40,909 nt of DNA from Methanocorpusculum sp. (GTDB lineage: Archaea > Halobacteriota > Methanomicrobia > Methanomicrobiales > Methanocorpusculaceae): assembly GCA_017399555.1 (NCBI GenBank), contig JAFQBW010000005.1, positions 1 to 40,909 of the forward strand, in the 5' to 3' direction. Shown here one piece after another: positions 2,741 through 33,394 of the stretch. Position 1 is the first letter of the stretch. Each line of letters opens with the position of its first letter. Under the pieces are notes generated by a model that searched no databases, was not told where the DNA came from, and was given only the letters and a program-made list of their open reading frames with translations. A program made the position numbers and the translations under genes.

Positions 2741-2753
2741 AGTATGTCAGAAC
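2741..2753 (-). promoter_or_regulatory. shared backbone promoter/operator element, copy 1
   Basis: On the minus strand the sequence reads CGTTCTGACATACT. The CATACT ends 32 bases before the cpaB-like ATG. The 12-mer TTCTGACATACT recurs exactly upstream of the lipoprotein/SSB operon (33381-33394), and a near copy precedes the four-TM/ATPase operon (20970-20985). CATACT could be a -10 hexamer; no convincing sigma-A -35 is seen at 17 bases. Confidence 0.5.
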
Positions 2754-2768
2754 GGATTTCAAAAGGCT

Positions 2769-2798
2769 CGTGACAGAAAGGGAGAAGAACGCTATAAT
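2769..2798 (+). promoter_or_regulatory. probable promoter of the ankyrin gene
   Basis: A perfect TATAAT at 2793-2798 lies 30 bases before the start codon. A weak -35 (CGTGAC, 2769-2774) is 18 bases upstream. It lies back-to-back with the divergent cpaB element. Confidence 0.5.
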
Positions 2799-2828
2799 GG
2801 AAGAAACGACAGAGGATGGGGGGAGAGT

Positions 2829-3908
2829 ATGGCAACAAAGAAAAAGACGCTGCCTAAGGATTTTCAGGAGCTGATAAAGGCGGGAAATCTGGATGCACTG
2901 GTTAAAGCAATGGTCAAGTGCGAGCCAAATGCCACAGGTGACTATAACAAATACAATGCATTCAGCTACGAGGGCGTAACGGAGGAGTTCGCCAAGTGGC
3001 TGGTGGAATATGGGACAGACATCAACATGCCTGATAAGTATGGATACACGCCGCTGCACTACCGGGCCATGCGTCGTAACAGCAGGGAGCAGCTGGAACT
3101 GTATATTCGATTGGGCGCCGACATGAACAAACAGGGGTCCTTTAATGGCGGCCCTCTGCATGGTGCAGCATCCTACGGTATTGCAGAAAATGTGCAGGTT
3201 CTAATCGCTGCCGGAGCAGATGTGCTTGCAAAAACGAAAACTCCCAATCCAGAGGGTGGAGATACTGCGCTGGAATTTGCTTTAAGCCGCTGCCGTGGTG
3301 GAGACATCGTGGAGAAAATCGATGCCGTTGAACTGCTGATAAGAGCAAGGGTGCCTGTCACAGAGAAGGTAAAAGAGCACGCGAAGCGAATAGCAGCAGA
3401 TATCGAATTCCATCGCGCTGATTTTGCAGAGGAATGGGCCGGGAAAGTGGATGCATCACTGGAGCGTCTTTACGACTTGACAGGGATTACGCCCGCGAAA
3501 AAACGACGTATCCATGATGGAAAGTCCCCGATTACCGTCACTGCCAAAACCTGGCGTGAGCAATACGCAGAGCTATGGGAAATGCTTGTGCCCGGCAGTG
3601 GGTCTTGCCAGACGATGCAGGGGGAGGCCATCCGCGTTATTGGCCGTGTAACAGACGAACTGCTGAATAACGGCGGAGGTAACTGGGATAAGGATTACTG
3701 CACCATGTTGGAGTCTTTAAAAGCATTTTTCTCCATGGGAATGCCTCTTGACGAGGTAGCGCTTGAAGAAGTAGGGAAACTGTGTGCCCAAGTATCCCCG
3801 GATACAGACTGTGAAGCTGCGCTTCAATGTCTTCAGCAGATGAGCGTCCGTTGGGTGTTGAAGAACCAAGAACCGATTGCATTGGGGAAACCGGCCTATC
3901 GCAGATAG
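2829..3908 (+). CDS. ankyrin-repeat protein
   Basis: 359 aa, no signal peptide, so probably cytoplasmic. Residues ~50-185 hold about three to four ankyrin repeats, recognisable by DKYGYTPLHYRAM, IRLGADMNKQG, GGPLHGAASYGIAENVQVLIAAGADV and DTALEFAL. Ankyrin repeats are protein-binding modules; the partner is unknown. The C-terminal ~170 residues are helical and not recognised. The ATG at 2829 follows a GGGGGGAG site. It is transcribed alone, divergently from the Tad-like operon, and closed by the terminator at 3921-3957. Confidence 0.85.
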   Translation: MATKKKTLPKDFQELIKAGNLDALVKAMVKCEPNATGDYNKYNAFSYEGVTEEFAKWLVEYGTDINMPDKYGYTPLHYRAMRRNSREQLELYIRLGADMNKQGSFNGGPLHGAASYGIAENVQVLIAAGADVLAKTKTPNPEGGDTALEFALSRCRGGDIVEKIDAVELLIRARVPVTEKVKEHAKRIAADIEFHRADFAEEWAGKVDASLERLYDLTGITPAKKRRIHDGKSPITVTAKTWREQYAELWEMLVPGSGSCQTMQGEAIRVIGRVTDELLNNGGGNWDKDYCTMLESLKAFFSMGMPLDEVALEEVGKLCAQVSPDTDCEAALQCLQQMSVRWVLKNQEPIALGKPAYRR

Positions 3909-3920
3909 ATTTACGCAAAA

Positions 3921-3957
3921 CAACGGACAGGCCTTGCGCCTGTCCGTTGCCGGTTTT
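3921..3957 (+). terminator. rho-independent terminator after the ankyrin gene
   Basis: A perfect 12-bp stem (3921-3932 with 3938-3949), 5-base loop, then a short T run (CCGGTTTT). Confidence 0.8.
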
Positions 3958-3987
3958 CATAAGAAGCAAAAAATATTTTGATTAGAA

Positions 3988-4027: not shown

Positions 4028-4041
4028 GGGTGAGGCAGAAC

Positions 4042-5761: not shown

Positions 5762-5770
5762 TGCAATGGA

Positions 5771-5806: not shown

Positions 5807-5810
5807 GTAA

Positions 5811-12674: not shown

Positions 12675-13715
12675 TTACGGCTCCGCGAAAGCGACGCTGA
12701 CCAGCTGCTGAGGCCAAATCGTCTTAATGGTGGCTGGTTCTCCTTCATAGGTGATGATTACTTGGTCATCCATAGAATAATCATCAGCAGAGATGTCTGG
12801 GGGCAGAGTAACGGTGTAAACAAGGTCCTCTCCATCCGGCCGTACGCCAATGCGATTGGCATAGGGGTCCACACTATGGACGGCGCCATACAGAACATTG
12901 CTGGCATCCGCATCGTCATCGGGTGTCTCTGTCACGACAGTCATCAATATGCGCAGGAAATCATCTTCACTGACGCCGCTGGCGTCTACATACCAGCCGA
13001 CATCATTTTGCAGAAGCTCCACATAGAAGCGCTGTGCGCCATTTTCGTCTACATAGGAGAAGACGGAGAGGTCGTGGCCATTCACAGAGGTGAAGCCAAT
13101 CTGCTCCCCGGTCAAGGTGAAGATGTCATAGGGATGATGAAAGGCTTTGGTCAGCGTGATGTGCAGAGTCTGTGTACCGTCTGCATTTTCAAAGCGGACG
13201 CTGTTGCCATCATAGTAGGCGCCGCGCTCGCTGTTCTGATAGACGCCGTATCCTCGTTCGCTGTCGGCAAGGGACAGGTCGGGAAACGCCTCCTCGATAG
13301 GCAGTTCGATGCCGTAGTAGGAAAGCAGCTCCACATAGGTCATGGAAATATAATCCTCGCCCGGCAGAGCGATTTGCTGATATGTGGCGGGGTCCGGTTT
13401 GTCGACGAGATTGAAATGCGCTACAGGAAGTACCAGGTCAACAGGCAGCTCCGGGTCCACGGTCATGTAGCTCCCTTCGGTCACGCTGGCGACGGTTCCA
13501 TCCTGGAATTCCCTTTCCTCCGGTTCGTCTATGGGTTCATTGAATGCAGGCTGTGAATCAAAGAGACCGCTGTGCCATGCGCCGAACCCGACAAGTGCGA
13601 CAAGGCAGAAGCAGGACAGGGTGGAGACGATGCGCTTTGTGGCGCGCCTTCGCTCCGCAACGTATTTATCACGACGCTCCAGAATGGATTGCGCCACTTC
13701 ATTATAATCCTTCAT
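12675..13715 (-). CDS. membrane-anchored anti-sigma factor candidate
   Basis: 346 aa. A ~30-residue basic cytoplasmic N-terminus (SILERRDKYVAERRRATKR) is followed by one TM segment (about residues 30-50) and a large external domain. This is the layout of Clostridia anti-sigma proteins. It overlaps the sigma gene by 14 bases and has AAAGGAGGG before its ATG. The external region has a DUF4367-like feel in the middle (GYGVYQ, NADGTQTLHITL, FSYVDENGAQRFYVELLQNDVGWYVD) and ends in the domain shared with the next lipoprotein. It likely transmits an envelope signal to the sigma factor. Confidence 0.78.
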   Translation of the reverse strand: MKDYNEVAQSILERRDKYVAERRRATKRIVSTLSCFCLVALVGFGAWHSGLFDSQPAFNEPIDEPEEREFQDGTVASVTEGSYMTVDPELPVDLVLPVAHFNLVDKPDPATYQQIALPGEDYISMTYVELLSYYGIELPIEEAFPDLSLADSERGYGVYQNSERGAYYDGNSVRFENADGTQTLHITLTKAFHHPYDIFTLTGEQIGFTSVNGHDLSVFSYVDENGAQRFYVELLQNDVGWYVDASGVSEDDFLRILMTVVTETPDDDADASNVLYGAVHSVDPYANRIGVRPDGEDLVYTVTLPPDISADDYSMDDQVIITYEGEPATIKTIWPQQLVSVAFAEP

Positions 13716-14259
13716 AGGTAAAGCCCTCCTTTTCCAGTTCTGACTTCAGAGCCAGCTTTGCCCGATAGAGGAGATTCGCAATCTGCCGGTTACTCCGTTT
13801 CATGACTTTGGCAGCCTGCGCATTGGTCAAATCCTCGAAGAAGATGAGATAGAGGATGGCGCTGTAGTCTGGGTTGATATTGTCCAGCGCCCGGTAGAGC
13901 ATCCTCTTATCCTCCGACTGTATGTAAGAGCGTTCCAATAGGTCCGCCTCATCGCTCATATCCGCAGAATCCTCCATGGATGTGGAAGCTATCCTTGCGG
14001 CACGTTTCAGATAGTTCAGAGCAATGTTCCTGCCAATGGTATAAAGCCATGTCTTGAAGGTGTATTTGGCAGTAAAGCGGGGCCGTCGGGTCGCAAGCCG
14101 GAAAAAGGTCTCCTCCATCAGTTCCTCGGCGGTGTGGATGTTGTTCACATACCGGTTCAGGAACAGAATCAGACCGTCTTTATAGTCCCTTACTATCTCA
14201 ACAAAGCCAGTGTCATCACCATCAAGGAAACGGCGGTAGCTACTTGCACCGTTATCCAT
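13702..14259 (-). CDS. ECF-type RNA polymerase sigma factor heading a lipoprotein operon
   Basis: 185 aa. The ATG at 14259 has AGAAGGGAG; the earlier in-frame start at 14310 lacks such a site. Region 2 covers residues ~10-85 (TAEELMEETFFRLATRRPRF, YTFKTWLYTIGRNIALNYLKR). Region 4 covers ~115-175 (ALDNINPDYSAILYLIFFEDLTNAQAAKVMKRSNRQIANLLYRAKLALK). It belongs to the short sigma-70 group. It heads an operon with the overlapping anti-sigma gene and three lipoproteins, so its regulon probably includes the cell surface. Confidence 0.87.
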   Translation of the reverse strand: MDNGASSYRRFLDGDDTGFVEIVRDYKDGLILFLNRYVNNIHTAEELMEETFFRLATRRPRFTAKYTFKTWLYTIGRNIALNYLKRAARIASTSMEDSADMSDEADLLERSYIQSEDKRMLYRALDNINPDYSAILYLIFFEDLTNAQAAKVMKRSNRQIANLLYRAKLALKSELEKEGFTYEGL

Positions 14260-14316
14260 GATTTTCTCCCTTCTGTGGTTTTGAGATGCATCCCTTTGTC
14301 TGTTAAACAATCGAAA

Positions 14317-19200: not shown

Positions 19201-20395
19201 CTAAGCTTTGGCCCTGCGAGATGCTTTGCCCACGAGTCTCGTTCGTTCCGAAATTTTCACTGGTGCCGTGGGATATCGACTGATTGGTGCTGACGGAGCT
19301 GTTGGTACCGAAGCTGGTGCCGGTGGATTTACTGGTGCCAAAGGACTCTCCGATGCTGGTGCCAACAGTATCCGACTCGGAGAGGGAAACGCTGTCGGTG
19401 ATGCTGGTACCCTCTGTGTGGCCAAAGCTCTGGCCAAAGGTCTCGGATAGGGAGTGACCGATACTCTCCCCATAACCCTGTGTGAAGCTCTCCCCATTGG
19501 AATAAGAGATGCTTTCGGCGTCCGTATAGGCGTGGGACCAGCCCTGGGAGGAGCCGGTATTGGCCATATACATCATGGGCAGGGATAGGGAGGCGGAAAG
19601 GCTCTTGGTACCCTGCAGCTGGCTGTTCCACTGGGTCATATCCAGCTGCGTCCTTGTCTGCCATGCCTTCAGGGTATCCATGAAGACGGGGGTGGAGAGC
19701 ACCTGAATGACATACTCGTAGTCCACCATGCCGGTGATGATTTCCTCCAGCGTACCCTGAGAGTCGGGGTTGAGGTTCTTATTCCCGATGCCCTTATTAC
19801 CCATGTTCTCGCCGGTCTTGCTGGCTTTCGGGATGCCCCGTACCATCGTCAGATGGTCCATGGAGAACATTTTTTCCCGCAGCCATTCCGTCTCCTGTGC
19901 TGTAATGGGGCGGAAGTGGGCGACCCGGTAAGTGCCCTGCACGGCGGCGGCAAGACCGATAAAGTCCCGTCTCGCCTTCTCCTTCGCTTCGTCCAGCGTT
20001 GCAGCTATGCCCTGCACGCCGTAGAGATAGAGGAGTCCAAGGGGGACAGGGTGGATGATATTGGCAATGACAGTGGTGAAGTTATACTGGTTTTCATAGG
20101 CGGAGGTCAGTATCTGCTCGTGCATGTCCATCAAAGACGTGGATTGCTTGGCGTCACGAGGCAGGCGCTGGATACGCAGGAATTTCAGCGCCTTATACAG
20201 GTGATGCGTTTCCCCGGTCTCCGGGTTGATGACTTCAATCTCATAGCAAAGGTATTCCAGGCGGCGCTCCTTATCGGATGCGCCGCTTTCTTCATACTCC
20301 GCCCAAGAGTCGATGAGCCGGAAGTCATCTACCGGCATCTCATTGGCGGAGTTGCGCAGGATACGGCGGATATCGCCGGGATTTAAAATGCCCAT
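16274..20395 (-). CDS. HerA/VirB4/VirD4-like ATPase with ~480-residue serine-rich linker
   Basis: 1373 aa. N-terminal domain (residues ~1-280) with alpha/beta character, then a low-complexity Ser/Gly/Thr/Gln linker (about 290-770), then a C-terminal P-loop ATPase. The Walker A is GASRSGKT (962-969), followed by a MDPKQDW motif; the Walker B-like VIEEANEV lies at ~1216-1223, then an AITQKIAD motif typical of VirB4/VirD4/HerA ATPases. Family members pump DNA or power secretion at the inner membrane. The ATG at 20395 has GAGAGGAG; the frame is open from 20434 but without a site there. It follows a four-TM gene by 19 bases. The linker has no equal in standard VirB4/VirD4 proteins. Confidence 0.82.
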   Translation of the reverse strand: MGILNPGDIRRILRNSANEMPVDDFRLIDSWAEYEESGASDKERRLEYLCYEIEVINPETGETHHLYKALKFLRIQRLPRDAKQSTSLMDMHEQILTSAYENQYNFTTVIANIIHPVPLGLLYLYGVQGIAATLDEAKEKARRDFIGLAAAVQGTYRVAHFRPITAQETEWLREKMFSMDHLTMVRGIPKASKTGENMGNKGIGNKNLNPDSQGTLEEIITGMVDYEYVIQVLSTPVFMDTLKAWQTRTQLDMTQWNSQLQGTKSLSASLSLPMMYMANTGSSQGWSHAYTDAESISYSNGESFTQGYGESIGHSLSETFGQSFGHTEGTSITDSVSLSESDTVGTSIGESFGTSKSTGTSFGTNSSVSTNQSISHGTSENFGTNETRGQSISQGQSLGQTVGQTVGQTVGQTVGQTVGQTIGVNHGVSVGESQNVSESLSIGHSESVSQGSSGSSTWGSSNSVTNSSGGSANASVSGSQGVSTGTNWSESAGVNGSQSTTTGQTHTDSSSSSVNGGINVFGINAGGGGSWSDSDSTSVSESNSSGWNASQSVGGSVSQNASQGWSESAGTNWSQGTSQSQSTGGSIGWNNSTGTTDSVTQGTSVGSGVSQSESFSASQSESVSNSVSNSLSNSVSNSVSNSLTESLTKGYSESLGASHSVGSSDSVSFGSGRTEGVSQSVSNTIGESATSSTSESKSHSSGITTGSSVGRTQSVSTTESTSVGTSDSTTQSTNVSTGRSTSKGSSLSTGQSMGSSGMVSTGTGGSMGLGPSIGYNKSYQWLDQQVKDILELLEFQNERIKNALRGSGAFYTYVYIACESPDALSAAQALAKTTWQNDEAMIQPLQVMYLNEEEQRHLLYHFSAFSSDVTRVNVNGVQEYKYSTVLLPKEFVAYTHLPRVSEGGIFAEVGDVPKFAVPSMLKGEIYMGSILSAERYSMHNGYTTPYDYRISEKELMHGFFTGASRSGKTVAAMRFVAELSRIRRSKTGKRLRIICMDPKQDWRGLARFVEPERFRFYSMGNPNFHPLHFNPCKIPRGVIPQIWVDVLIEIYCRAYGLLERGKQLMAETFYSLYEETGVFDVYGKPGWEDEVPLLSSNVTFAKAYERMTYYKRQMDDGTSARGRGGNDTKDAYARLLERLSAFGRPFSIERRLFGEADGLGVDDIIGADDITILESKGLESTFKNFIFGVITAGFYRYAIAQPNGYLAPDQYETVLVIEEANEVLTGSDTAGTGNTQMGLSGQSEFEQILDQSAGYGLFIFAITQKIADMPKSIIANAGLVFAGKVKTEDDVNVIVKTIAKDPRYDDRDVTKWFPRSPTGWFVCQSSRTMNFMDAEPILVKISMLNVSQPTNAEIDEMLAEREVILALKEHSAS
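18090..19505 (-). repeat. serine-rich low-complexity coding repeat region
   Basis: About 1.4 kb inside the ATPase gene encodes irregular short repeats built from Ser, Gly, Thr, Gln, Val and Asn (such as SVSNSLSNSVSNS and GTSxGxS). No charged or cysteine-rich blocks occur. The opposite strand stays open through it, which produces long spurious ORFs. Confidence 0.85.
19129..19200 (-). repeat. six 12-bp tandem units encoding GQTV/GQTI
   Basis: Six consecutive units encode Gly-Gln-Thr-Val (last one Ile) within the linker of the ATPase. Units differ mainly at third codon positions, so the repeat is maintained at protein level rather than being a recent slippage product. Confidence 0.85.
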
Positions 20396-20414: not shown

Positions 20415-20939
20415 TCAGCGCTCACGGATGCCACGAATCTGCTCCATCACCTTGTTCTTGGCGCTGGTACGGCGGAAGGTAATGAATTTCTTGCCCTGCA
20501 GCGTGAGAAAGGTGATGGGCGTCATGAACGACAGTATCCAGAGCATGGATTGCAGAAAGCCGGAGATGGTGGAGCCGGTACTGACGGGCAGCGCCTGACT
20601 GTAGGTGGCCATCAGCTGCTCTGAGGAGGTGGTTGCCGCGATACCGATAAGCCATTTCAACAGCATCAGACCCGCCAGATACCCGGCGACGGCGGCATGA
20701 GTCTCGTTGAGGGCGCTTTTTCTCTGGGACGGGATTTTTAGCGCGACTGCTGCGCCGGCTATCCACATGATACTTGCGGCCGGGGCCAGGATGTTCTGCC
20801 CAAATGCCCCGAACTGCCCAATAATCACAAGCGCAAGCAGAAATACCCCGATGGGGATGGCGATTGCCTTGATATAACTGCCAAGTTCCTGCGAGGACAT
20901 GCCCTGGCGGTAGCTGATTCGACTTGTGTTCCTATCCAT
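20415..20939 (-). CDS. four-TM membrane protein, partner of the large ATPase
   Basis: 174 aa. Four hydrophobic segments (about residues 19-42, 50-68, 83-105 and 128-150) and a basic C-terminal tail (FRRTSAKNKVMEQIRGIRER). No family is recognised. The ATG at 20939 has AAAGGAG ten bases upstream; the longer in-frame reading from 21068 lacks one. It is directly upstream of the ATPase (19-base gap) and is the first gene of that unit, so a membrane anchor or pore subunit for the ATPase is plausible, as with VirB/TraG-like partners. This is inference. Confidence 0.7.
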   Translation of the reverse strand: MDRNTSRISYRQGMSSQELGSYIKAIAIPIGVFLLALVIIGQFGAFGQNILAPAASIMWIAGAAVALKIPSQRKSALNETHAAVAGYLAGLMLLKWLIGIAATTSSEQLMATYSQALPVSTGSTISGFLQSMLWILSFMTPITFLTLQGKKFITFRRTSAKNKVMEQIRGIRER

Positions 20940-20969: not shown

Positions 20970-20985
20970 CCAGTATGAAAGAAAC
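20970..20985 (-). promoter_or_regulatory. shared backbone promoter/operator element, copy 2
   Basis: On the minus strand the sequence reads GTTTCTTTCATACTGG, close to the copies at 2741-2753 and 33381-33394. CATACT again ends 32 bases before the first start codon (20939). Confidence 0.5.
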
Positions 20986-21080
20986 AGGGGCGTGGATGTT
21001 TCCTGCATACTGCAGTGAAATCCATAGAGAAGAAGGGAGGGAAAATCGATGAACAGCACACCTTGCATCGTCGGAAGCAG

Positions 21081-21137: not shown

Positions 21138-22604
21138 ATGGAAAATGACATCATGTATAGCGCCCCTTATTGGCGCTGGCTCGACAAGAAACTTGCGGGG
21201 AATAACAGTCCCATGGCTACCTTACAGCGCAGGACCATGAATACCGCCAGCACGATTCTGACGACTATCCGGGCTATCCCCTTTTCCAAACTGTCCGCCA
21301 CGCTTTATTTCTTCTGCGCCGACGTAGAGACGCGGGAATTTGCCCGGCTCTATGAGTCGCAGCTGGAGTTGGCTGGCGCCGCTCCGGAGAAGTTTGCCAA
21401 GGGCCTGCACAAGTTCTATAACGATGTGACTAATAAAATCAAGAAGGAAAACCGCTTTGCCGACTTCTTCGATTTTATGTCCCTCTGCGGCCGGATTCGT
21501 CTGCAGTCCACGAACCCCAATGTGGATATTTCCGTAGTGAACTGCTACTACAGCCTGCTGCTCCAGAACCTTGAATACTTGCGGCCGGACAAGTTCAACT
21601 TCAATGTGGCGCTGTGTGGGATGAAGACCACAGGGGAGCTACTGACGGTAAAGGACAGCTATCCCAATCTGGATACGCCTGCCTATCTTCTGGAGTTGGC
21701 GGTGCGGGAGAACAGAATCCGAGATAATGAGGAACTGCAGGCCATGATAGCCCGGGAGTACAGCAAGGCCGGATACAAGGATGTAAAGGGTCTGGATGAT
21801 GTGGAGCATCTGACCAATGTGGACCGCTTGTTCACCAATCATGTTGCCGCCATGCTGCCCTTTATCAATGAGTACACCTATGACCTGCTGCCGCAAAAGC
21901 TCTTTACCACCTTAGCTGCACCTTTCCTCGCAATCCAGGTCATAACTCCGACGGACAAACTGGTGGAGATGCTGCGGCATAGAAGCGCAACGCTTCCCAC
22001 CAACGGCGTCGTTTTTCAGTTCAAAAACCCCTTCGTTGTGCTGGAAGTGCAGATGAAAGAGACCTTCTATAATGACCGGATTTATATGCTCTACCGCATG
22101 GATACCATCATGGGTGAGCTGTCCGGCTTCTATGACACGCAGGACGGCTTCCTCTACTCCGTACTTCTGGAGGCCTCGGACGATGACTACTATGACCGAG
22201 TGAAAAGGCTGCTGCTCTACCTGTATGCCAGCGTCGTTACGAAGCATGGGGCAAAGATGCAGCAGACGATGCCTGTTTGCTGCTGGTACGAAGCGGAGGG
22301 AAAAGATTCCCAGAAAATCCCCATGCAGACGGAAGTGTTTGGCAGAGGCGGTAAGCTGAAGAATGTCTATGACCCGGAACCTGAAACAGAGCATCGAAAA
22401 GTGCGCAAGGGCAACGAAAACTATGAGGAGGAAGACCGAGCCATTCAGGGCTTCATCCGCAAAGTCGGAAAGGGGAAGACGCCTTCGCCACAGGCTGTTG
22501 AATATGCCAAATCCCTTGGCTACGACCTGGCGCTGGATGAGACTTACGTGCGCCCCTTTATCCGCAGGGTGCTGCGCCTAAAGGAAAAAGGCGTTGCAGA
22601 ATAA
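21138..22604 (+). CDS. hypothetical protein of 488 aa
   Basis: No signal peptide or TM segment. The family is not recognised. The first ~100 residues are helical (TASTILTTIRAIPFSKLSATLYFF, ARLYESQLELAG); the C-terminal ~80 residues are charged and include KVRKGNENYEEEDRAIQGFIRKVGKGKTPSPQAVEYAKSLG. The protein is rich in Tyr and Leu, with no zinc or nucleotide-binding motif seen. It has its own good promoter and is divergent from the four-TM/ATPase unit. A second promoter within its end drives the HipA-like gene. Cytoplasmic role unknown; it may act on the same machinery. Confidence 0.6.
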   Translation: MENDIMYSAPYWRWLDKKLAGNNSPMATLQRRTMNTASTILTTIRAIPFSKLSATLYFFCADVETREFARLYESQLELAGAAPEKFAKGLHKFYNDVTNKIKKENRFADFFDFMSLCGRIRLQSTNPNVDISVVNCYYSLLLQNLEYLRPDKFNFNVALCGMKTTGELLTVKDSYPNLDTPAYLLELAVRENRIRDNEELQAMIAREYSKAGYKDVKGLDDVEHLTNVDRLFTNHVAAMLPFINEYTYDLLPQKLFTTLAAPFLAIQVITPTDKLVEMLRHRSATLPTNGVVFQFKNPFVVLEVQMKETFYNDRIYMLYRMDTIMGELSGFYDTQDGFLYSVLLEASDDDYYDRVKRLLLYLYASVVTKHGAKMQQTMPVCCWYEAEGKDSQKIPMQTEVFGRGGKLKNVYDPEPETEHRKVRKGNENYEEEDRAIQGFIRKVGKGKTPSPQAVEYAKSLGYDLALDETYVRPFIRRVLRLKEKGVAE

Positions 22605-26920: not shown

Positions 26921-27511
26921 TCAGTTGAATTCCCTGGGACTCAAATACCTGTGGGGACTGGTGGCAAATCCGTTTTGGTATTTGACGGTCATATACAGAG
27001 TGTCGTCGCCATTTTCCAGCTTGACATAGCAGACATCATCTTCAAACTTGTCTGTGATGTCTACCTTCTGGTCGCCCCAGTAGACGCAGACGGTCCCGTT
27101 TTCCTCATACTGCACATCAGGTCCAGCAAGATACTCCATGATTTCGTACTCTGTTACGGGAACCTCGGTCCCGTCGGGAAGGAAGGAGACACCGCCGCCG
27201 GCCTGGTAGTGGACATTGCCATCGTCATCGGTGTGTTCCATGCTGTAATTGCCGTTGCCATCAAATGTCACCGTTGCTGAGGTCTGGTCCCCATTGAACC
27301 AAATCTGCACAGTGCGCTGGATACCGCCTACATCGGCGGCGTAGGCCATGGTCATGCCGCCAATCATCATCGCACAGGCAGCCACAACAGCAACAATTCT
27401 ATTGAGCTTCCAACGTTTTACGGTTTTTTCCATTACATTTACCTCCAAAGAAAAATCATCAGAGGCACGCAGTACGGAGAACGCCTGCTTGTATTTTTCC
27501 TTATTCGTCAT
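26921..27511 (-). CDS. anti-sigma factor candidate, single-pass membrane protein
   Basis: 196 aa. A ~38-residue cytoplasmic N-terminus (KYKQAFSVLRASDDFSLEV, TVKRWKLNR) precedes one TM segment (about 39-58) and a ~135-residue external domain with YWGDQKVDITDKFEDDVCYVKLENG. It overlaps the sigma gene by 11 bases and has GGAGG before the ATG. The layout fits an anti-sigma factor, with the external part as sensor. Signal unknown. Confidence 0.78.
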   Translation of the reverse strand: MTNKEKYKQAFSVLRASDDFSLEVNVMEKTVKRWKLNRIVAVVAACAMMIGGMTMAYAADVGGIQRTVQIWFNGDQTSATVTFDGNGNYSMEHTDDDGNVHYQAGGGVSFLPDGTEVPVTEYEIMEYLAGPDVQYEENGTVCVYWGDQKVDITDKFEDDVCYVKLENGDDTLYMTVKYQNGFATSPHRYLSPREFN

Positions 27512-27983
27512 CGTCCCATGCCTCCTTCAGTGTGCTGCGAAGCAGCTTTCTTCCGCGTGACAGGCGGACTTTTACATTGCCTGACGAGATTTTTAGGATG
27601 CCTGCTATCTCGTCCACAGAGTAGTCCTCATAGTAGAACAGGTGAACCACAATACGGTACTTTTCCGGGAGCTTCATCACAGCCTCGAATAGTTCGGACG
27701 ACTCCTCGGACTCGAATGATAGCGACTCCATGTAATCTTCCAGTGGCAGAGTCTTTTTTCGGAAAAGGGAATTGTTTTTGTTCTTCGCCTTATTGATTGC
27801 TACTCTGAGAAGCCACGCACGTATATGCTGCTCCGTTTCAAAATCTTTGTTTTGTGACCAATATTGAATGAAAGTGTCCTGCACAACATCCTCTGCATCC
27901 TGCGCATTTTTACATATATTGAATGCCGCGGCATAGAGGTTGTGCCGAAACGCTTCAATCACCGTCTCGACGGGTAGTTTCAT
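27501..27983 (-). CDS. ECF-type RNA polymerase sigma factor
   Basis: 160 aa from the ATG at 27983 (AAGGAG, 8-base spacing); a longer reading to 28118 runs through the promoter region. Region 2 covers ~8-70 (AQDAEDVVQDTFIQYW, IRAWLLRVAINKAKN); region 4 covers ~100-155 (LPEKYRIVVHLFYYEDYSVDEIAGILKISSGNVKVRLSRGRKLL). ECF-like length. Operon with the overlapping anti-sigma gene; divergent from another sigma/anti-sigma pair. Confidence 0.9.
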   Translation of the reverse strand: MKLPVETVIEAFRHNLYAAAFNICKNAQDAEDVVQDTFIQYWSQNKDFETEQHIRAWLLRVAINKAKNKNNSLFRKKTLPLEDYMESLSFESEESSELFEAVMKLPEKYRIVVHLFYYEDYSVDEIAGILKISSGNVKVRLSRGRKLLRSTLKEAWDDDE

Positions 27984-28000
27984 AAGCATGCTCCTTAACT

Positions 28001-28050
28001 GGTACAAAGGCCTTTCACCAATAATACAACTGGGCGGGACAAAAGGTAAC
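28001..28050 (-). promoter_or_regulatory. ECF-like promoter with AAAGGCCTTT palindrome, minus side
   Basis: On the minus strand: GTTACCTTTT (28041-28050) as possible -35, TTGTATTAT (28021-28029) as -10, then GTGAAAGGCCTTT (28006-28018). The 10-bp palindrome AAAGGCCTTT sits at 28006-28015. Confidence 0.5.
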
Positions 28051-28087
28051 ATCGTTTTTAAAAAAATGCAATGCAGAGCCGATTTCC

Positions 28088-28116
28088 GCGTGTATAGGAG
28101 TGAAAGGCCTTTACAC
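28088..28116 (+). promoter_or_regulatory. ECF-like start region with AAAGGCCTTT palindrome, plus side
   Basis: GCGTGTAT (28088-28095) as -10, then GTGAAAGGCCTTTACAC; the palindrome lies at 28103-28112. This mirrors the minus-side element, with 12 identical bases in the same place relative to each gene. The -35 is unclear. Confidence 0.5.
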
Positions 28117-28135
28117 AAGGGGAAAGGAGGGAGCC

Positions 28136-28696
28136 ATGAACGACAATGAGATTCTGGACCTGTACTGGTCGCGTTCCGAGCGCGCCATAGAAGTGACAGC
28201 GGAGAAGTATGGCGCCTACTGTCATACCGTCTCCTTCAATATCCTGCACAGCAACGAGGATGCAGAGGAATGTGTCAATGACACATGGCTGAACGCGTGG
28301 AACGCCATCCCGCCAAACCGTCCGAACCGGCTGCAGACTTATCTTGGCAAAATCACGCGTAATTTATCATTGAGCCGGTACCGGAAGTACAGTACGGAGA
28401 AGCGCGGCTTTGGCCAGATGCCGTTGGTCCTGTCGGAGCTGGAGGAATGTGTTACCGCAGGAGATACGGTGGAGCAGGAAATTGAGGATAAGGCGCTGCT
28501 GGCTGCCATAGAGAAGTTCCTGTATGGACTGCCGGAGCAGAGGCAAAATATCTTCATCCGCCGCTACTGGTATCTGTATTCCATTGAGGATATTGCCAAG
28601 GCGTATGGGATGAGCAAGTCAAAAACGGCCTCCCTGCTTTTCCGGTTAAGGAACAGCCTGAAGGCACACCTTGAAAAGGAGGGCATCGTGCTATGA
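28136..28696 (+). CDS. ECF-type sigma-70 family RNA polymerase sigma factor
   Basis: 186 aa from the ATG with AAAGGAGGG. Region 2 (residues ~8-75) includes EDAEECVNDTWLNAWNAIP and TYLGKITRNLSLSRYRK; region 4 (~125-182) is LPEQRQNIFIRRYWYLYSIEDIAKAYGMSKSKTASLLFRLRNSLKAHL. It has the long, tyrosine-rich region 4 of a Clostridia sigma family. The start is overlapped by the next gene (ATGA at 28693). Divergent from the 27983 sigma gene. Confidence 0.9.
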   Translation: MNDNEILDLYWSRSERAIEVTAEKYGAYCHTVSFNILHSNEDAEECVNDTWLNAWNAIPPNRPNRLQTYLGKITRNLSLSRYRKYSTEKRGFGQMPLVLSELEECVTAGDTVEQEIEDKALLAAIEKFLYGLPEQRQNIFIRRYWYLYSIEDIAKAYGMSKSKTASLLFRLRNSLKAHLEKEGIVL

Positions 28697-29469
28697 AAAG
28701 CGAGAGATTGATTTCAGTAATGAACGACCTCAACGACGAACTGGTCGAAGGGGCCGTCAAGGATACGGGGGCAAGCAGGAAACGTGGATGGCTCAAATGG
28801 GGTGCTGCGGCCGCCTGCCTGTGCCTTGTGGTGGTGGGCGCTGTTATGTGGAGCAACCCCGGCTTCCCCGGGCACATCGGGGAGCGTGGGCCGGACGCAG
28901 CTTTAGGCGGCGCTGAACCGGGCGGCGTCGGCATGTGGCCGGAGGGAGTAGACCCTGTTGTAGCGAGTCTTGCTGTATTCCCTGCGGGGGAGGACCTGCT
29001 GAACGTGGCTGACGCGACCTCTGTTTCCATCAGTGAGGAGGAAGCAAGGGAGATAGAGGACCTGGGCGCCTTTATCCCGACTGTGCTGCCGGAGGACTGT
29101 CATTATGGTGCCGCCGGCTACTATGAGACGACCATGAAAGATGGTACCCGCTACCACATGATTCGGGTGACCTATGACAGTCGAATGCAGACGGTTCCTG
29201 CCCCCGTTCCGAAGCAGGAAAACGTCGATGGAAACGAGGAGGCGTCCACTGCCGTGTATCATGATTCGGCATTCCTGTGGATGGTCTGGGGGCATCGTCC
29301 AGACACCGACCTGCCTTTCTTCCGACCGGAGGAAATCAACGCGCAGCTTCTGGAACAGCAGAAGTACAATGTGTTTTATATTGATTATGGTGGTATCTAT
29401 GTCGGGGTTTCCCAGATGGATATCGAAACAGAGGAAATGCTGTCTGTCATCGAGTCGATTGGGCATTAA
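28693..29469 (+). CDS. anti-sigma-like membrane protein
   Basis: 258 aa. A ~32-residue N-terminal cytoplasmic helix (LISVMNDLNDELVEGAVKDTG) is followed by one TM segment (about 34-54) and a Gly/Pro-rich external part. The C-terminal ~120 residues hold FLWMVWGHRPDTDLPFFRPEEI and VFYIDYGGIYVGVSQMDIETEEMLSVIESI, a beta-rich domain seen in Clostridia anti-sigma proteins. Overlaps the sigma gene by 4 bases. Last gene before the terminator at 29485. Confidence 0.8.
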   Translation: MKSERLISVMNDLNDELVEGAVKDTGASRKRGWLKWGAAAACLCLVVVGAVMWSNPGFPGHIGERGPDAALGGAEPGGVGMWPEGVDPVVASLAVFPAGEDLLNVADATSVSISEEEAREIEDLGAFIPTVLPEDCHYGAAGYYETTMKDGTRYHMIRVTYDSRMQTVPAPVPKQENVDGNEEASTAVYHDSAFLWMVWGHRPDTDLPFFRPEEINAQLLEQQKYNVFYIDYGGIYVGVSQMDIETEEMLSVIESIGH

Positions 29470-29484
29470 AAGCGGATAAAGAGC

Positions 29485-29522: not shown

Positions 29523-29704
29523 AGGATATTCTGTTCTTCCCGGACTACAGCCGCATTCTCCTCCTTGATGCCCATGATGATGGAGGCCAGAGCCGCCGCC
29601 ACCAGCAGGATGAGGCACCAGTTATTTGAGAAGGCGTAGAGCAGGGAATTCACTGCATTGGCGTGGAATGCCCGTAAGGACTCCCACAGGAGCTGGATGT
29701 TCAT
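29519..29704 (-). CDS. 61-aa single-TM peptide at the end of the SSB operon
   Basis: One TM segment (about residues 26-45) and a charged C-terminus (KEENAAVVREEQ). The start overlaps the upstream stop (ATGA), so it is translated with the coiled-coil gene. Family not recognised. Its position as last gene of a backbone unit suggests a small membrane subunit. Confidence 0.7.
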   Translation of the reverse strand: MNIQLLWESLRAFHANAVNSLLYAFSNNWCLILLVAAALASIIMGIKEENAAVVREEQNIL

Positions 29705-31242
29705 AGGCTGTCTCCCTTCTGTATCGTCGGTGTAGCGCTTTCGTTGAGGTTATAGATGGCGTACCAGCTCTTGTCATCGTTGATGCTGGCGGCGCCCTCC
29801 AGCCGCTTGAGCGTGGTGATGCGGACTCGGATGCCTCGGAGCGCCTTGTGTCCGCCACGCAGTTCAATCCACTTATCCACCTTGGCAATCAGTCCCTCGG
29901 CAGTCCCGATGTTGGGCGCCACGATGTTCAGGTACTTGGTCACCTTGGCCATTTTATTGAGCTTGATATTGAAGTTGCTTTGATTATGGGTGTCGCGCTC
30001 GTATTCCAGATACATGGCAAAACCCTTCGCCTTATCCCGAGCAATGATGTCGGGGATATAGGTACTGGAGTCATCAATGCGTATGGTGTTCGTCTGCCGG
30101 TCCATGGTGACGGTGGAGAAGCTGCCGGTGGCCTCCATGATTTCCTTGAGGGTCTTGATGCCAAGCCCGTGCTCAAGGTTATCGTGTTGGGCAATGAGCG
30201 CGTCACGTTCCGAGGCGACCGGCTTCTTTCCAAACTGCTGCTCATAGAGCCGCTTGCCGATTTCAGACAGGGAGTAGACGCCGAAATTGCTTTTGAGGGG
30301 GTGCTGGATATTGGTGTCCAGAATCAAAACGCCAAGGTCTACAAGGTTCTTGAGTTCATAGCTGAAACCGCCGTCTGTTATCTTGCGGTCGGAAGCATTG
30401 CGCTTTTTGTAGAGGTCGATGAAAGCCGTTTTTAACTGGCTGCGCTCATAGTAGCCAGTGCTGCCGATGACTTCCAGCACCAGCCATTTCCGCTCATTCA
30501 TGCGCTCCCGGATATCGCCTACATCCACCATCATAGCCTCCACAACACGCTTGCGCTCCTGTTCCACGGCGCGCTGCTTTTTGGCGGATGGGGATATCTT
30601 GATACCGCTGCGTTCCAGAGATATGACTTCGCCCAGTTTTGCCATGCCTTGCTGCTGTGCAATGTCAGAGAGGGAGACGTCATCGTCTTCCTCAATGAGC
30701 TGGATTTCCAAGGCGCCTTCCTTCACCGCCTGCTGCATATTGTAGTTGACTCGCCGCATTGTCTCGGCGGGTATCTCCTTTTTCATGTCTGGCACTGCAG
30801 CGGAAGTAACTGGCATCTGCTCCGGCTCCGGAGAAGCAGGCGCCGGCGGAGGAGGAGCAGAACGAAGCTCCTGCATGGAGGAAGAAATCTGCAGTTTCAG
30901 ACTCTCGATTTGCAGACGGCGCTCCTCTGCTGTCTCCTGTATGGTTTTCAGCAGTTGGGTGCGGCTGTCATTATAGCTGGCAAAGACGACTTTGGCTTTC
31001 TGGAGCAATGTCCGTAGGTCCAGCTTGCCCCAGGAGTATTCGGAGCCAAGCACCATCTCCCGTGGCTCTTTTGCCAGCACCAGCTCACACAGTTCCCGGG
31101 CAAGGGACTCGTTGATGCGGAAATTCTGCTCCATCTCCTTCCAGACAGACTCCTTTTCCTCCATCTGCTTTTCCAAGTCCCGGAACCGGGCAATGAGCCG
31201 GTTGTATTTGCTCAGTAGGATGTTGTAGCTGTCATCGCCCAT
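29701..31242 (-). CDS. coiled-coil protein with possible relaxation/nuclease-like C-terminal domain
   Basis: 513 aa. N-terminal coiled coil (residues ~10-45 and 88-125), Pro/Ala linker (~128-150), a winged-helix-like region (~245-340: IGSTGYYERSQLKTAFIDLYKK, LVDLGVLILDTNIQ), then a C-terminal region with IPDIIARDKAKGFAMYLEYERDT, KLNKMAKVTKYLNIVAPN. The PD...EYE...K pattern is reminiscent of PD-(D/E)XK folds and of the replication-relaxation family found on conjugative elements; this is a tentative match. The ATG at 31242 follows the previous gene by 3 bases. Possible DNA-processing or helper protein of the backbone. Confidence 0.5.
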   Translation of the reverse strand: MGDDSYNILLSKYNRLIARFRDLEKQMEEKESVWKEMEQNFRINESLARELCELVLAKEPREMVLGSEYSWGKLDLRTLLQKAKVVFASYNDSRTQLLKTIQETAEERRLQIESLKLQISSSMQELRSAPPPPAPASPEPEQMPVTSAAVPDMKKEIPAETMRRVNYNMQQAVKEGALEIQLIEEDDDVSLSDIAQQQGMAKLGEVISLERSGIKISPSAKKQRAVEQERKRVVEAMMVDVGDIRERMNERKWLVLEVIGSTGYYERSQLKTAFIDLYKKRNASDRKITDGGFSYELKNLVDLGVLILDTNIQHPLKSNFGVYSLSEIGKRLYEQQFGKKPVASERDALIAQHDNLEHGLGIKTLKEIMEATGSFSTVTMDRQTNTIRIDDSSTYIPDIIARDKAKGFAMYLEYERDTHNQSNFNIKLNKMAKVTKYLNIVAPNIGTAEGLIAKVDKWIELRGGHKALRGIRVRITTLKRLEGAASINDDKSWYAIYNLNESATPTIQKGDSL

Positions 31243-31245
31243 GGC

Positions 31246-32022
31246 TTATGCTCCTTCCGTCAGACTCTCGGAAAACGCCTCGGGAGACCAGTCGTAAATG
31301 TCCATGTTATCCGCTCCCTTGGTGCTGCGAGCGAGTGATACGGCATTGGCAGTCAGGCGGGAGAAATCTGCATACATAACGTCCCTTGAGATAAGGGCGT
31401 TATTGGCCTTCTCCGCATTGTTTTCCGTAATGGCGCCAGCCATGTTCTGCAGATACACGGCAATATCCGTCTTTACCCAATTCAGCAGCTGCCCGTAGAC
31501 GCTGGAGTATCCGGTCTCGTATTCGGCGGCGCTGATATCCACAGAAAGCTTTGCAACGTCATCCAGCAGCGCCGTATAGTCCATGGCCACGACAAGGGCG
31601 CTGTCTGGAGCAATGGAGAGACGGTAGTCCAATGTCATGGCTTCCTCATACAGGATACGGGCACGCAGGAAATAGGCGGAGAAGGCTTCGTATTCCGCAA
31701 GGGAACGCATATCGGAAACAGTCAGTACCTCCGGCGCGACCTGACCCTGCTCCGTGTAGACATAGCGTGTCATGGAGACTCCGTAAATGAGGAAGGCGAC
31801 ATAGACGCACAGGGCAATCAGGCATATTTGCAGGCCGAAGGTCAGCCGGCTGCGCAGAGCGGAACCACGCTTTTCCCTTGTCTGCCGGCGCTCGGCTTCC
31901 TGTTCCAGCGCCTCGTCATATTCTGCAGCCGGCTCCATGATGGGAGTGGTAGTCTGCGGCTCCTGTCCTGCGCCAAGTCTATTCATACGGGAGGAGAGCA
32001 GGGAAGTGTTCTTCTTTGCCAT
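31246..32022 (-). CDS. single-TM membrane protein of the SSB operon
   Basis: 258 aa from the ATG at 32022, which has GGAGGAG at 7 bases; the ATG at 32028 is too close to that site. Cytoplasmic N-terminus of ~65 residues rich in Glu/Arg/Pro, one TM (about 64-88), then an external, mostly helical domain (YEAFSAYFLRARILYEEAMTL, LLNWVKTDIAVYLQNMAGAI). Family not recognised. Probably a bitopic component of the membrane machine. Confidence 0.7.
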   Translation of the reverse strand: MAKKNTSLLSSRMNRLGAGQEPQTTTPIMEPAAEYDEALEQEAERRQTREKRGSALRSRLTFGLQICLIALCVYVAFLIYGVSMTRYVYTEQGQVAPEVLTVSDMRSLAEYEAFSAYFLRARILYEEAMTLDYRLSIAPDSALVVAMDYTALLDDVAKLSVDISAAEYETGYSSVYGQLLNWVKTDIAVYLQNMAGAITENNAEKANNALISRDVMYADFSRLTANAVSLARSTKGADNMDIYDWSPEAFSESLTEGA

Positions 32023-32024
32023 GG

Positions 32025-32840
32025 TCATTCTCCTCCTTCATCTTCATCAGCTTTTGGAGACTCGTCGAAGATACAGTTCATCAGATACTCCACACTGTAA
32101 GGAAACAGCTCCGCAACGCCTTCTTTGATGACATAGGCCGCCTCGCAATCCTCACAGACGATTTCCCGTTCGATTTCGCGGGTCTGTACGGCGCCGTTGA
32201 TAAACACAGTGGAATTGAGCCGCAGATGCTCGTAATCGTCCCGTGCCTGCCGGTTGATGGTCTTGACCCAGGGATAGTCCGTCCGCTCCTCGTCGTGGCC
32301 GTCCCGGATATGGTAGCGGCGGTTTGCGGCGATTTGGTACTGGGTCATGCAGCCCTTTTTATCCTCATGCTCATAGAAAACTGGGTCACGGCAGAGGGTG
32401 CCGATTATCATGACTACGTTGGATATCTCCGCCCTGGCCCGCAGCAGTTCCATACCCTGCTCCTCGCTCAGTTCCGGTTCCCGGCGGCAGATGTAGATGG
32501 GGGTGATAAAGACGAAGTTGCCGAGGGATGTGTTCTCGTGTCCATTGGGGCAGGTGGATTTCTTTGTTACCTCGCGGGTGGTCAAAACGCCGCGGATATC
32601 CACCATGTCGCCCTTCCGCAGGGTGGAGGAAGTTTTTATCAGCTCTGCGTCAGAGGTCAGTATGATGGGATAGTCGATATAGAGCTTTCCAGCCACGATT
32701 TGCCCCTCGCCAGTGAGGAATGGGCGGCGCAGCACCTTCACAGCGAAGGTGGCTCGTTTGGCTTCACCGTTCCCGTTGAGATAGATACGGGGCCGCTCAT
32801 ATACTTGTCCGTGCAGCAGCACGCAGTTTTCTCTTGCCAT
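32025..32840 (-). CDS. SSB-like protein with two OB-type domains
   Basis: 271 aa. The first domain (residues ~5-125) reads CVLLHGQVYERPRIYLNGNGEAKRATFAVKVLRR, KGDMVDIRGVLTTRE, the pattern of single-stranded DNA-binding proteins. The second (about 140-250) repeats the scheme: VVMIIGTLCRDPVFYE, YQIAANRRYHI, STVFINGAVQTRE. Cys/His pairs (CPNGH near residue 97, CEDCEAA near 230) may bind zinc. The C-terminus is acidic (DEDEGGE), as in SSBs that recruit partners. Two nucleotides separate its stop from the next start. It would protect ssDNA during transfer or replication. Confidence 0.7.
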   Translation of the reverse strand: MARENCVLLHGQVYERPRIYLNGNGEAKRATFAVKVLRRPFLTGEGQIVAGKLYIDYPIILTSDAELIKTSSTLRKGDMVDIRGVLTTREVTKKSTCPNGHENTSLGNFVFITPIYICRREPELSEEQGMELLRARAEISNVVMIIGTLCRDPVFYEHEDKKGCMTQYQIAANRRYHIRDGHDEERTDYPWVKTINRQARDDYEHLRLNSTVFINGAVQTREIEREIVCEDCEAAYVIKEGVAELFPYSVEYLMNCIFDESPKADEDEGGE

Positions 32841-32867
32841 AGTTCTACTCCAATCGTCCTCTATTCC

Positions 32868-33350
32868 TCATTCAGGCATGACGGTAAAAGCGCCAGTAAG
32901 GGAAACATAGGCGCTCTCCATCCTTGTGATTGCGGTATCGACAGCCTCTGCGTCAGCTGCCACCAGCGCGGACTGATACTCCATAATGGCCTCCTGTGCT
33001 TCCTCCAAACGACGCAGGGCGGAGTTCCGCAGGTCTTCGTATCCATCCGGCGGCCGCAGGGTATCCACGCTGTCGATGGCATCGGCAATAAGAAGCAGGT
33101 TCTCTGCGACGCTCTGTGTCTCATTGGCTGTCAGGGCAGTTGAATCCAGCGCTGTGCGGCTGTTCCCGAGATGGGTCGCCAGCAGGTTCATCACAAGGCC
33201 CAGTTCCTTATCCATATAGGTCGTGTAATTGAGCGCATCGGTAGCCGTGTCGGTGGAGTATCCGTCATCCATTGGGACTTGCTTATGGCCGGTAGAGCAG
33301 CCGGACAGGAGCAGAAGGGTGAAAAGGAGGCAAAGCAATTTGTATTTCAT
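32868..33350 (-). CDS. lipoprotein, first gene of the SSB operon
   Basis: 160 aa with lipobox LLLSGC from the ATG at 33350 (AGAGGTG upstream; the start at 33368 lacks one). After a ~20-residue linker the rest is helical: a four-helix-like bundle (LNYTTYMDKELGLVMNLLATHLGN, NLLLIADAIDSVDTL, LRRLEEAQEAIMEYQSALVAAD). Family not recognised. Exposed on the outer face of the membrane, possibly a surface subunit of the machine encoded with it. Confidence 0.7.
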   Translation of the reverse strand: MKYKLLCLLFTLLLLSGCSTGHKQVPMDDGYSTDTATDALNYTTYMDKELGLVMNLLATHLGNSRTALDSTALTANETQSVAENLLLIADAIDSVDTLRPPDGYEDLRNSALRRLEEAQEAIMEYQSALVAADAEAVDTAITRMESAYVSLTGAFTVMPE

Positions 33351-33380
33351 CCGTGAAGCACCTCTCAATCTTCTTGTTGG

Positions 33381-33394
33381 AGTATGTCAGAAAC
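33381..33394 (-). promoter_or_regulatory. shared backbone promoter/operator element, copy 3
   Basis: On the minus strand the sequence reads GTTTCTGACATACT. It shares TTCTGACATACT with copy 1, and CATACT ends 30 bases before the lipoprotein ATG. Confidence 0.5.

Follow-up and report, generated by a model that had tools for sequence, protein, structure and literature searches.

The Locus and Its Recurrent Box

The window analyzed here, that is, the whole stretch of 40,909 nt from contig JAFQBW010000005.1 of assembly GCA_017399555.1, carries a set of plasmid-type backbone genes on its minus strand, in the order dnaE, a 160-aa protein, a single-strand DNA-binding protein (SSB), a 258-aa protein, a replication-relaxation-like protein, a 174-aa protein, a Ser-rich protein, CpaB, and CpaE. 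A short box, TTCTGACATACT, precedes several of the transcription units that these genes form, and it is very probably the core of a dedicated promoter for the backbone of a large plasmid of gut bacteria. This promoter, mostly without a -35 box, is perhaps read by a sigma factor of the plasmid itself and would drift in sequence along with that sigma factor. The window and its fellow contigs of the same assembly are referred to below as the own element and are treated together, although they may be more than one molecule.

The exact 12-mer TTCTGACATACT is found at 2741-2752 and 33381-33392 on the minus strand; TTCTTTCATACT, with two mismatches to it, lies at 20972-20983 on the same strand, and a weaker copy, TTCCACCATACT, at 38655-38666 (minus; hexamer 38655-38660) stands before dnaE (34620-38615, minus), the gene of the DNA polymerase III alpha subunit. 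From the end of the hexamer CATACT, it is 32, 32, 30, and 39 nt to the ATG codons at 2708, 20939, 33350, and 38615, respectively. A preliminary description of this DNA had placed these four copies correctly to within a few bases, and the 12-mer that it reported as shared exactly by two copies and with two mismatches in a third, as well as its distances of 32, 32, and 30 bases, are borne out here.

The copy at 2741-2752 (hexamer 2741-2746) has its predicted transcription start at G 2734, the seventh base after the hexamer, and heads an operon on the minus strand comprising a CpaB/RcpC-like Tad-pilus assembly protein (2001-2708) and a CpaE-like ATPase of the ParA/MinD type (465-1973; Pfam AAA_31, ParA, and CbiA). 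The CpaB start was set at ATG 2708, which is preceded by GGGAG, and the Pfam RcpC match (3.5e-8) was obtained for the longer open reading frame (ORF) 2001-2732. The copy at 20972-20983, with a predicted start at A 20965, precedes the genes of the 174-aa conserved backbone protein (20415-20939, minus) and of the Ser-rich protein (16274-20395, minus), whose C-terminal half is DUF87-like according to the annotation of distant matches; the Ser-rich protein has no Pfam match at 0.001. Within this conserved gene, the long Ser-rich stretch at about 18100-20395 contains 12- and 24-bp tandem repeats. The copy at 33381-33392 (predicted start A 33374) is followed by the genes of the 160-aa protein, which from its sequence has a lipoprotein-like N-terminus (32868-33350), SSB (32025-32840; Pfam SSB 2.6e-12), the 258-aa conserved protein (31246-32022), and the replication-relaxation-like protein (29701-31242; a weak Pfam match below the cut-off), all on the minus strand. 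A hairpin resembling an intrinsic terminator (33421-33447, minus) ends its stem 28 bases before this copy. In addition, TTTCCTGCATACT at 20999-21011 on the plus strand is a possible, weak divergent partner promoter standing back to back with the copy at 20972-20983, with only a short ORF directly after it.

Inside the window alone, copies with at most two mismatches are no more frequent than expected by chance (5 versus a shuffle mean of 2.59, with 10 of 100 shuffles reaching 5); the evidence consists of the two exact 12-mers, equally placed before start codons, together with data from outside the window. In the whole assembly (2,024,668 bases), there are 11 exact copies of TTCTGACATACT, where 0.24 would be expected for uniform bases, and 37 copies with at most one mismatch versus 8 for the reversed pattern. 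Matches to the formula of the preliminary description, TTCTNNCATACT, number 20 in the remaining fetched contigs that had hits (175,241 bases), where 0.33 would be expected and each of 12 first-order Markov simulations gave 0-2, and there are none in three further contigs (54,974 bases); because the contigs with hits were picked for those hits, the unbiased figure is the whole-assembly count. Half of these matches (10 of 20) lie 10-95 nt before a called start, as judged by a simple gene caller in which long spurious ORFs mask short genes.

Under a loose rule, a Shine-Dalgarno (SD)-like sequence and a start codon follow within 60 nt at all 11 exact copies. Among CATACT sites, the same is true for 21 of 25 that have five or six letters of the preceding TTCTGA, for 10 of 37 with three or four letters, and for 10 of 110 with none to two, the Fisher test having been set on the first versus the last of these classes. 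A box some tens of nucleotides before an SD-like sequence and a start codon occurs at many sites on contigs C9, C44, C42, C1, C25, C32, C36, C51, C56, and C65. Pairs of divergent boxes standing back to back are also found repeatedly on the own contigs, their hexamers being separated by 16-39 bp (C44:4340/4370, C9:4971/4987, C42:20008/20040, C25:8296/8335, and 20977/21006 in the window). The end of C9 (about 32073) and the start of C51 (about 384) have near-identical sequence around CATACT, which is either a repeat or an assembly link.

A Megaplasmid in a Methanogen Bin

The assembly is a methanogen bin, with mcrA on C10, a stated completeness of 92.66, and a contamination of 0.98. Homologues of bacterial megaplasmid proteins are encoded on nine of its contigs, about 190 kb in total including the window. 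Two relatives are pRUMAL01 of Ruminococcus albus 7 (420,706 bp), which has the same backbone order without the interspersed accessory genes of the window, and pB6464 of Alkaliphilus sp. B6464 (435,827 bp), in which the order is similar. Two further relatives came to light through the C-terminal half of the Ser-rich protein, namely a 152.7-kb contig of Anaerostipes hominis (hereafter Anae) and a 139.4-kb contig (hereafter Lach) of a Lachnospiraceae metagenome-assembled genome (MAG), isolate Lapin-032, which judging from its name is from rabbit. All four were located by protein homology and not by the motif.

Among the backbone proteins compared, the C-terminal half of the Ser-rich protein has the highest identity (69% pRUMAL01, 68% Anae, 62% Lach, and 46% pB6464). 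The 174-aa and 258-aa proteins have homologues in Anae, Lach, and pRUMAL01, and the replication-relaxation-like protein in all four relatives. Proteins with homologues on the relatives' replicons are encoded on C9, C44, C42, C1, C56, C25, C36, C51, and the window, and for C32 and C65 homology is weak or not demonstrated. Outside the window, the own element further encodes a CHC2 zinc-finger (DnaG-type) protein, RNase H, an M23 peptidase, an exonuclease, an NAD-dependent ligase, UvrD, AAA and VWA proteins, RecJ, RecD2, and an actin-like protein. Most of the own contigs, the window among them, belong to a Clostridia-type megaplasmid that was co-binned with a methanogen. The bacterial sigma factor, the SD sites, and the Clostridia relatives speak against the methanogen as its actual host, a reading that was rejected on these grounds.

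In the genome collection, the replication-relaxation protein as query brought up no relative among 20 stretches tested, and an ATPase profile gave two loci; in IMG/VR, the same profile gave no locus (143 stretches tested). In 397 genomes of the family of the Anaerostipes genome (G001), the profile had 28 matches at E<=0.001, the best after G001 itself being 3.4e-9, and in 391 genomes of its class the single match at E<=1e-30 was G001 again. With so few matches, the megaplasmid family is rare among the genomes drawn. The motif combined with an SD pattern matched 10 stretches in IMG/VR, once each, and Rfam had no match in 141,372 bases of the own contigs.

Boxes Specific to Each Replicon

De novo motif discovery by expectation maximization (EM) on the upstream regions of each replicon gave one dominant box each, namely TTCtgaCATACTg for the own element, TTttCATACTATnaAT for Anae, ACATATTa for Lach, TTTcTgnTATAATa for pRUMAL01, and TGTGTTATGTTAAA for pB6464; in short form, the boxes of the four relatives are CATACTAT, ACATATT, TTTCTGnTATAAT, and TGTGTTATGTTAAA, with the same layout as the own box in other letters. 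The likelihood gains were 120.6, 257.2, 75.6, 248.8, and 291.4 for the own element, Anae, Lach, pRUMAL01, and pB6464, respectively, compared with at most 55.1 in five shuffled sets per replicon. Upstream regions above the 98% shuffle threshold numbered 33 of 113 in the own element (2.3 expected), 46 of 93 in Anae (1.9), 21 of 50 in Lach (1.0), 73 of 195 in pRUMAL01 (3.9), and 58 of 279 in pB6464 (5.6). The median distance from box to start codon is 37-41 nt in all five replicons. The first 180 kb of pB6464 alone yielded the same box, and ACTTGA is a second enriched upstream word of that plasmid.

Because the box differs between replicons, TTCTGACATACT itself is not clearly enriched on the relatives' elements. 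At most two mismatches allow it at 77 places in pRUMAL01 versus 53 for the reversed control, and at most one mismatch at 35 versus 32 in the whole of G001, 4 versus 2 in pB6464, 0 versus 0 in the Subdoligranulum plasmid OY725880, and 23 versus 6 in the whole Lachnospiraceae MAG (G002), with a single one of the 23 on C2, its element contig. The long Anaerostipes form, TCATACTATNAAT, is largely confined to the element, as 11 of its 12 copies in the 3.3-Mb genome are on the 152.7-kb element contig (reversed control, 2). A looser Lachnospiraceae pattern with an SD sequence has 24 matches in G002 versus 4 reversed (10 on C2, two of which are one site, 5 on C9, 3 on C47, 2 on C75, and 4 elsewhere) and 3 versus 6 reversed in G001. 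Contigs C9, C47, and C75 of this MAG, picked by their motif matches, have CATATT in 33 of 69 upstream regions (2.3 expected). Proteins matching the family make up 14 of 73 on C9, which encodes further backbone homologues including a sigma factor, 5 of 40 on C47, and 2 of 25 on C75; since other fetched pieces of G001 and G002 also match the family (0 of 10 to 2 of 9), these shares do not identify C47 and C75 as element DNA. OY725880, fetched for its sigma match, has no comparable motif and was counted as a negative.

The boxes also tend to stay with the same genes. With orthologues defined as reciprocal best hits found in at least two relatives, the replicon's box is present before 22 of 34 orthologues of own genes that have a box and before 11 of 47 orthologues of own genes that have none (Fisher p 2.5e-4, the orthologues of one gene not being independent). 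CpaB, dnaE, RecJ, and a C36 protein have the replicon's own box in the own element, Anae, Lach, and pRUMAL01, the Anae copy for the C36 protein being barely at threshold, and before the dnaE orthologues the motif stands at 73 (Anae), 25 (Lach), and 39 nt (pRUMAL01). The gene of the actin-like protein has the box in all five replicons, with a weak copy at 88 nt in pB6464. Counterparts of the 160-aa gene, matched by gene position rather than alignment and with boxes found by plain pattern, are a 163-aa gene in pRUMAL01 (TATAAT at 40 nt), a 170-aa gene in Anae (CATACT at 32 nt), and a 169-aa gene in Lach (CATATT at 51 nt). For the 174-aa gene, the box is clear in the own element, poor in Anae, and absent within 110 nt in Lach and pRUMAL01; in Anae, the Ser-rich gene itself is preceded by a box at 26 nt. 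Motif discovery upstream of homologous genes had been proposed as a check in the preliminary description, and the box does recur at homologous loci, in a form specific to each replicon.

Anatomy of the Probable Promoter

In the own element, Anae, Lach, and pB6464, no upstream column beyond the box stands out, and the absence of a conserved sigmaA-type -35, which the preliminary description had noted for the window, thus holds in four of the five replicons. TTGACA with at most two mismatches occurs at spacers of 15-19 in 6% of own sites (30 and 24% at control spacers of 22-26 and 28-32), 11% of Anae sites (33 and 20%), 30% of Lach sites (50 and 5%), and 29% of pB6464 sites (17 and 29%). In pRUMAL01, the figure is 42% versus 19 and 24%, with a T-rich, -35-like stretch.

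The seventh base after the hexamer is a purine at about 70% of own, 91% of Anae, 90% of Lach, 82% of pRUMAL01, and 88% of pB6464 sites. From the sixth to the seventh base, the purine share rises sharply in Anae (9 to 91%) and pRUMAL01 (18 to 82%) and fairly in pB6464 (43 to 88%) and Lach (45 to 90%). This pyrimidine-purine step suggests a likely transcription start, predicted at 7 nt past the hexamer. As the step is seen in the relatives only, it is these, and not the window's element, that support the usual distance from -10 to start.

Hairpins are common shortly before the box, as the 42 nt ending 6 nt before the hexamer have a fold of -8 kcal/mol or lower at many sites (own, 13 of 33; Anae, 20 of 46; Lach, 6 of 20; pRUMAL01, 12 of 72; pB6464, 9 of 58). 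A box this short leaves room for a terminator of the preceding unit directly before it or for a divergent box at its back.

Another class of sites has a TGGAG-type word, searched for within 14-44 nt of the hexamer, that begins 23-25 nt behind it in pRUMAL01 (18 of 19 sites) and 23-29 nt behind it in the own element (10 sites; for example, C1:14483, C42:20040, and C44:16341). The typical forms are TTGATAAnTTGGAGT and TTGACGATTGGAGT, and at many of these sites the true SD and start codon come further on. The word is inside a hairpin at some sites, the z score being below -2 in 6 of 29 leaders, and it is kept in both the own element and pRUMAL01 for RecJ and an AAA/MoxR-type gene. It is possibly a leader RNA or a site of translational control.

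Sigma Factors of the Replicons

The candidate reader of the own box is a sigma factor of 295 aa encoded on contig C9 of the same assembly (L009:7787-8674), with Pfam matches to Sigma70_r2 (28.0 bits, cut-off 24) and Sigma70_r4 (37.3 bits, cut-off 24.1). Its best sequence matches in the PDB are SigA chains (1.5e-8). It is not of the RpoD type (group 1), as it has no Pfam match to region 1 or region 3 and, by eye, SSHY in place of the IRIP of RpoD. Each relative encodes one homologue of it, at 2.7e-28 in Anae, 7.6e-12 in Lach, 8.2e-6 in pB6464, and 4e-5 in pRUMAL01, and a second Lachnospiraceae sigma is found on C9 of the MAG (6.4e-10). On Anae, Lach, and pRUMAL01, ten sigma queries brought up no sigma-like protein other than this homologue. 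At 320491-322836, pB6464 has two tandem sigma-like ORFs, the first being RpoD-like with regions 1.1 to 4. Pfam region 4 is matched in the own, Anae, Lach, and pB6464 sigmas and not in that of pRUMAL01, region 2 is unmatched in Lach, and Anae has a bare match to region 3 (26.0 versus a cut-off of 25.3). In IMG/VR, the own sigma has no relative (9 stretches tested).

Region 3.0 of sigma factors contacts the extended -10. At its start, in the place of the IRIP of RpoD, S/T-x-H-Y is found in four of the diverged sigmas and SCYY in the fifth. The residues at E. coli positions 437/440 are E/K in the own sigma, H/I in Anae, H/T in Lach, H/A in the second Lachnospiraceae sigma, A/L in pRUMAL01, and Q/T in pB6464; both regions were read by eye in an ungapped run after KFSTY, and MAFFT placed the gap differently. 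The -12 base of the box is C for the own, Anae, Lach, and second Lachnospiraceae sigmas and T for pRUMAL01 and pB6464. The substitutions Q437H and T440I are reported to suppress a change of T to C at -12 (PMC2613000), and the residues fit the -12 base well in Anae, Lach, the second Lachnospiraceae sigma, and pB6464, which for six sigmas is suggestive and not proof.

A box stands 41 nt upstream of the own sigma gene and CATATT 35 nt upstream of the second Lachnospiraceae sigma gene, and positive feedback is therefore possible at these two.

Many sigma genes of the extracytoplasmic function (ECF) type were also observed on the own contigs, at 13702-14310, 27501-28118, and 28100-29469 in the window and on C1, C9, C25, C42, C51, and C65, and nine ORFs outside the window have the protein of 28136-28696 as their best match. 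Several of these genes are followed by a second gene that looks similar from case to case by eye and perhaps encodes an anti-sigma factor. No ECF-type sigma was detected on the Anae, Lach, and pRUMAL01 replicons. The sigma of OY725880 has the RpoD-like sigma of pB6464 as its best match, and in Lactiplantibacillus plantarum plasmids of 63-80 kb encode a sigma-70 family protein that shares about 26% identity with the own sigma; there may be other plasmid sigma-promoter systems besides this family. Phage-type (T7-like) RNA polymerase (PF00940) was not detected in any of five genomes or records, and all 14 control genomes were silent as well.

Proposed Mechanism and Alternatives

The motif, its position, its variants in each replicon, its frequent conservation at orthologues, the lack of a conserved -35 in four of the five replicons, and the presence of a sigma factor in each replicon are observed, and they make it probable that TTCTGACATACT would serve as a -10 with an upstream extension for many backbone transcription units. 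Host core polymerase carrying the 295-aa plasmid sigma would bind a single box of 12-14 bp without a -35, the DNA would open at the hexamer, and transcription would start about 7 nt downstream, giving a short leader, typically of about 20-40 nt, that carries the ribosome-binding site. Related megaplasmids would have the identical layout with their own sigma and a drifted box. The reading of the box by this sigma, the start position, and the co-divergence of sigma and box are what we infer from the sequences. More broadly, and with slightly less than even confidence, this family of Clostridia megaplasmids might keep a private transcription channel for its replication, partition, repair, and pilus operons, in which sigma and box drift together and each lineage reads its own backbone only.

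Several observations weigh against a plasmid sigma as the reader. Twelve of the 34 orthologue pairs lack the motif where the own gene has it, and pB6464 has no box before dnaE or RecJ. The homology of the pRUMAL01 sigma is weak (4e-5), and the sigma of pB6464 is RpoD-like while those of the other replicons are diverged. The own contigs encode many ECF sigmas besides the candidate; the candidate keeps region 4 though no -35 is conserved, and its E437/K440 are not the classical residues for a -12 C. No motif precedes the sigma gene of Anae, Lach, or pB6464 within 110 nt. In the window's element, the purine share goes only from 55 to 70% between the sixth and seventh bases, much as at neighboring positions, with no start step. 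Finally, part of the pRUMAL01 sites have a -35 at 17-18 bp that is T-rich or resembles TTGACA, and host sigmaA may therefore serve them.

This last point leads to the alternative that the box is throughout an extended -10 promoter read by host sigmaA, the plasmid having merely standardized its promoters. Strong extended -10 boxes need no -35, a TG stands one base before the hexamer in the own (TTCTGA-CATACT) and pRUMAL01 (TTTCTGn-TATAAT) motifs, the pB6464 box is TGT-TATGTT, and the -35-like signal of pRUMAL01 would fit. We nevertheless consider it unlikely, as the C at -12 in the own element, Anae, and Lach departs strongly from TATAAT, the boxes differ between replicons, and the long Anaerostipes form has a single copy of 12 off the element in a test that covers the 3.3-Mb genome. 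Moreover, a sigmaA-like pair takes the place of the motif at some own genes. The preliminary description had assigned ordinary promoters to accessory genes, which is borne out in part; the gene at 21138 on the plus strand has one (TTGAAT-17-TATAAT, with TG before the hexamer), but among the 80 own upstream regions that lack the motif, a loose rule finds a sigmaA-like pair in no more than 18.

Could the box instead be an operator or activator site of a plasmid-wide regulator, overlapping weak promoters? Plasmid-backbone regulators do act at many promoters, and a single box without a -35, at times in divergent back-to-back copies, would be compatible with one; yet the box has TATA-like letters and no dyad symmetry, a start-like pyrimidine-purine step follows at +7 in four of the five replicons, and no other conserved promoter box is nearby in four of five, all of which render a regulator site improbable. 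A host sporulation-type sigma seems more improbable still. The -10 of sigmaE and sigmaK is CATA---T, which CATACT and CATATT resemble, but such a regulon should be mostly chromosomal and the long Anaerostipes form is confined to the element; there is also no conserved -35, and the replicons with TATAAT and TATGTT do not fit. Among the three options that the preliminary description had left, namely a promoter for another sigma factor, an activator-dependent promoter, and an operator, the promoter of another sigma is thus best supported, by the replicon-specific recurrence, the lack of a conserved -35 in four of five replicons, a start-like step that is clear in two replicons and fair in two, and a sigma in each.

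Significance and Comparison with Known Systems

If the link between sigma and box is true, the series of diverged pairs makes sigma-promoter co-evolution directly testable, and the box offers a sequence marker by which these megaplasmids could be recognized and binned in metagenomic data. The pairs would be naturally orthogonal and could supply orthogonal promoters for gut Clostridia, and they would be a possible basis of plasmid identity or incompatibility. Few plasmid sigmas with plasmid-restricted regulons have been described, SigN and UviA being among them. Searches of the open-licence literature showed no description of dedicated single-box backbone promoters that vary from plasmid to plasmid in Clostridia megaplasmids.

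Among the closest known systems are pRUMAL01 and pB6464, which share the backbone order (dnaE, SSB, replication-relaxation, Ser-rich, and Tad genes) and a replicon-wide motif of their own; they differ from the own element in the box, in the partly -35-like signal of pRUMAL01, and in the RpoD-like sigma of pB6464. One of the two closest precedents is SigN (ZpdN) of the Bacillus subtilis plasmid pBS32, a sigma whose regulon lies predominantly on its plasmid and whose gene has a sigma-dependent promoter; sigN is induced by DNA damage via LexA, and the cell is killed upon induction (PMC6751061). The own system would resemble it in combining a plasmid-encoded sigma with a plasmid-restricted regulon, a comparison made by description and not by sigma sequence. 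However, SigN promoters have a -35 and a -10 (PMC6751061), whereas here four of the five replicons have no conserved -35, the box stands ahead of backbone genes for replication, partition, and pili, among others, and it differs from plasmid to plasmid.

The late promoters of phage T4, the other precedent, are similar in another respect, as they consist of a short single box, TATAAATA, at -13 to -6, read by gp55 (PMC1524935). Both systems would thus combine an element-encoded sigma with single-box promoters, pRUMAL01 being the exception here. T4 late transcription further uses the gp33 bridge and the gp45 sliding clamp, and the own system differs in residing on plasmids and in a sigma that retains region 4. 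In Aeh1, a relative of T4, a C at -12 goes together with a diverged gp55 (PMC1524935), and this phage therefore provides a precedent for the co-divergence of box and sigma proposed here for the Clostridia megaplasmids.

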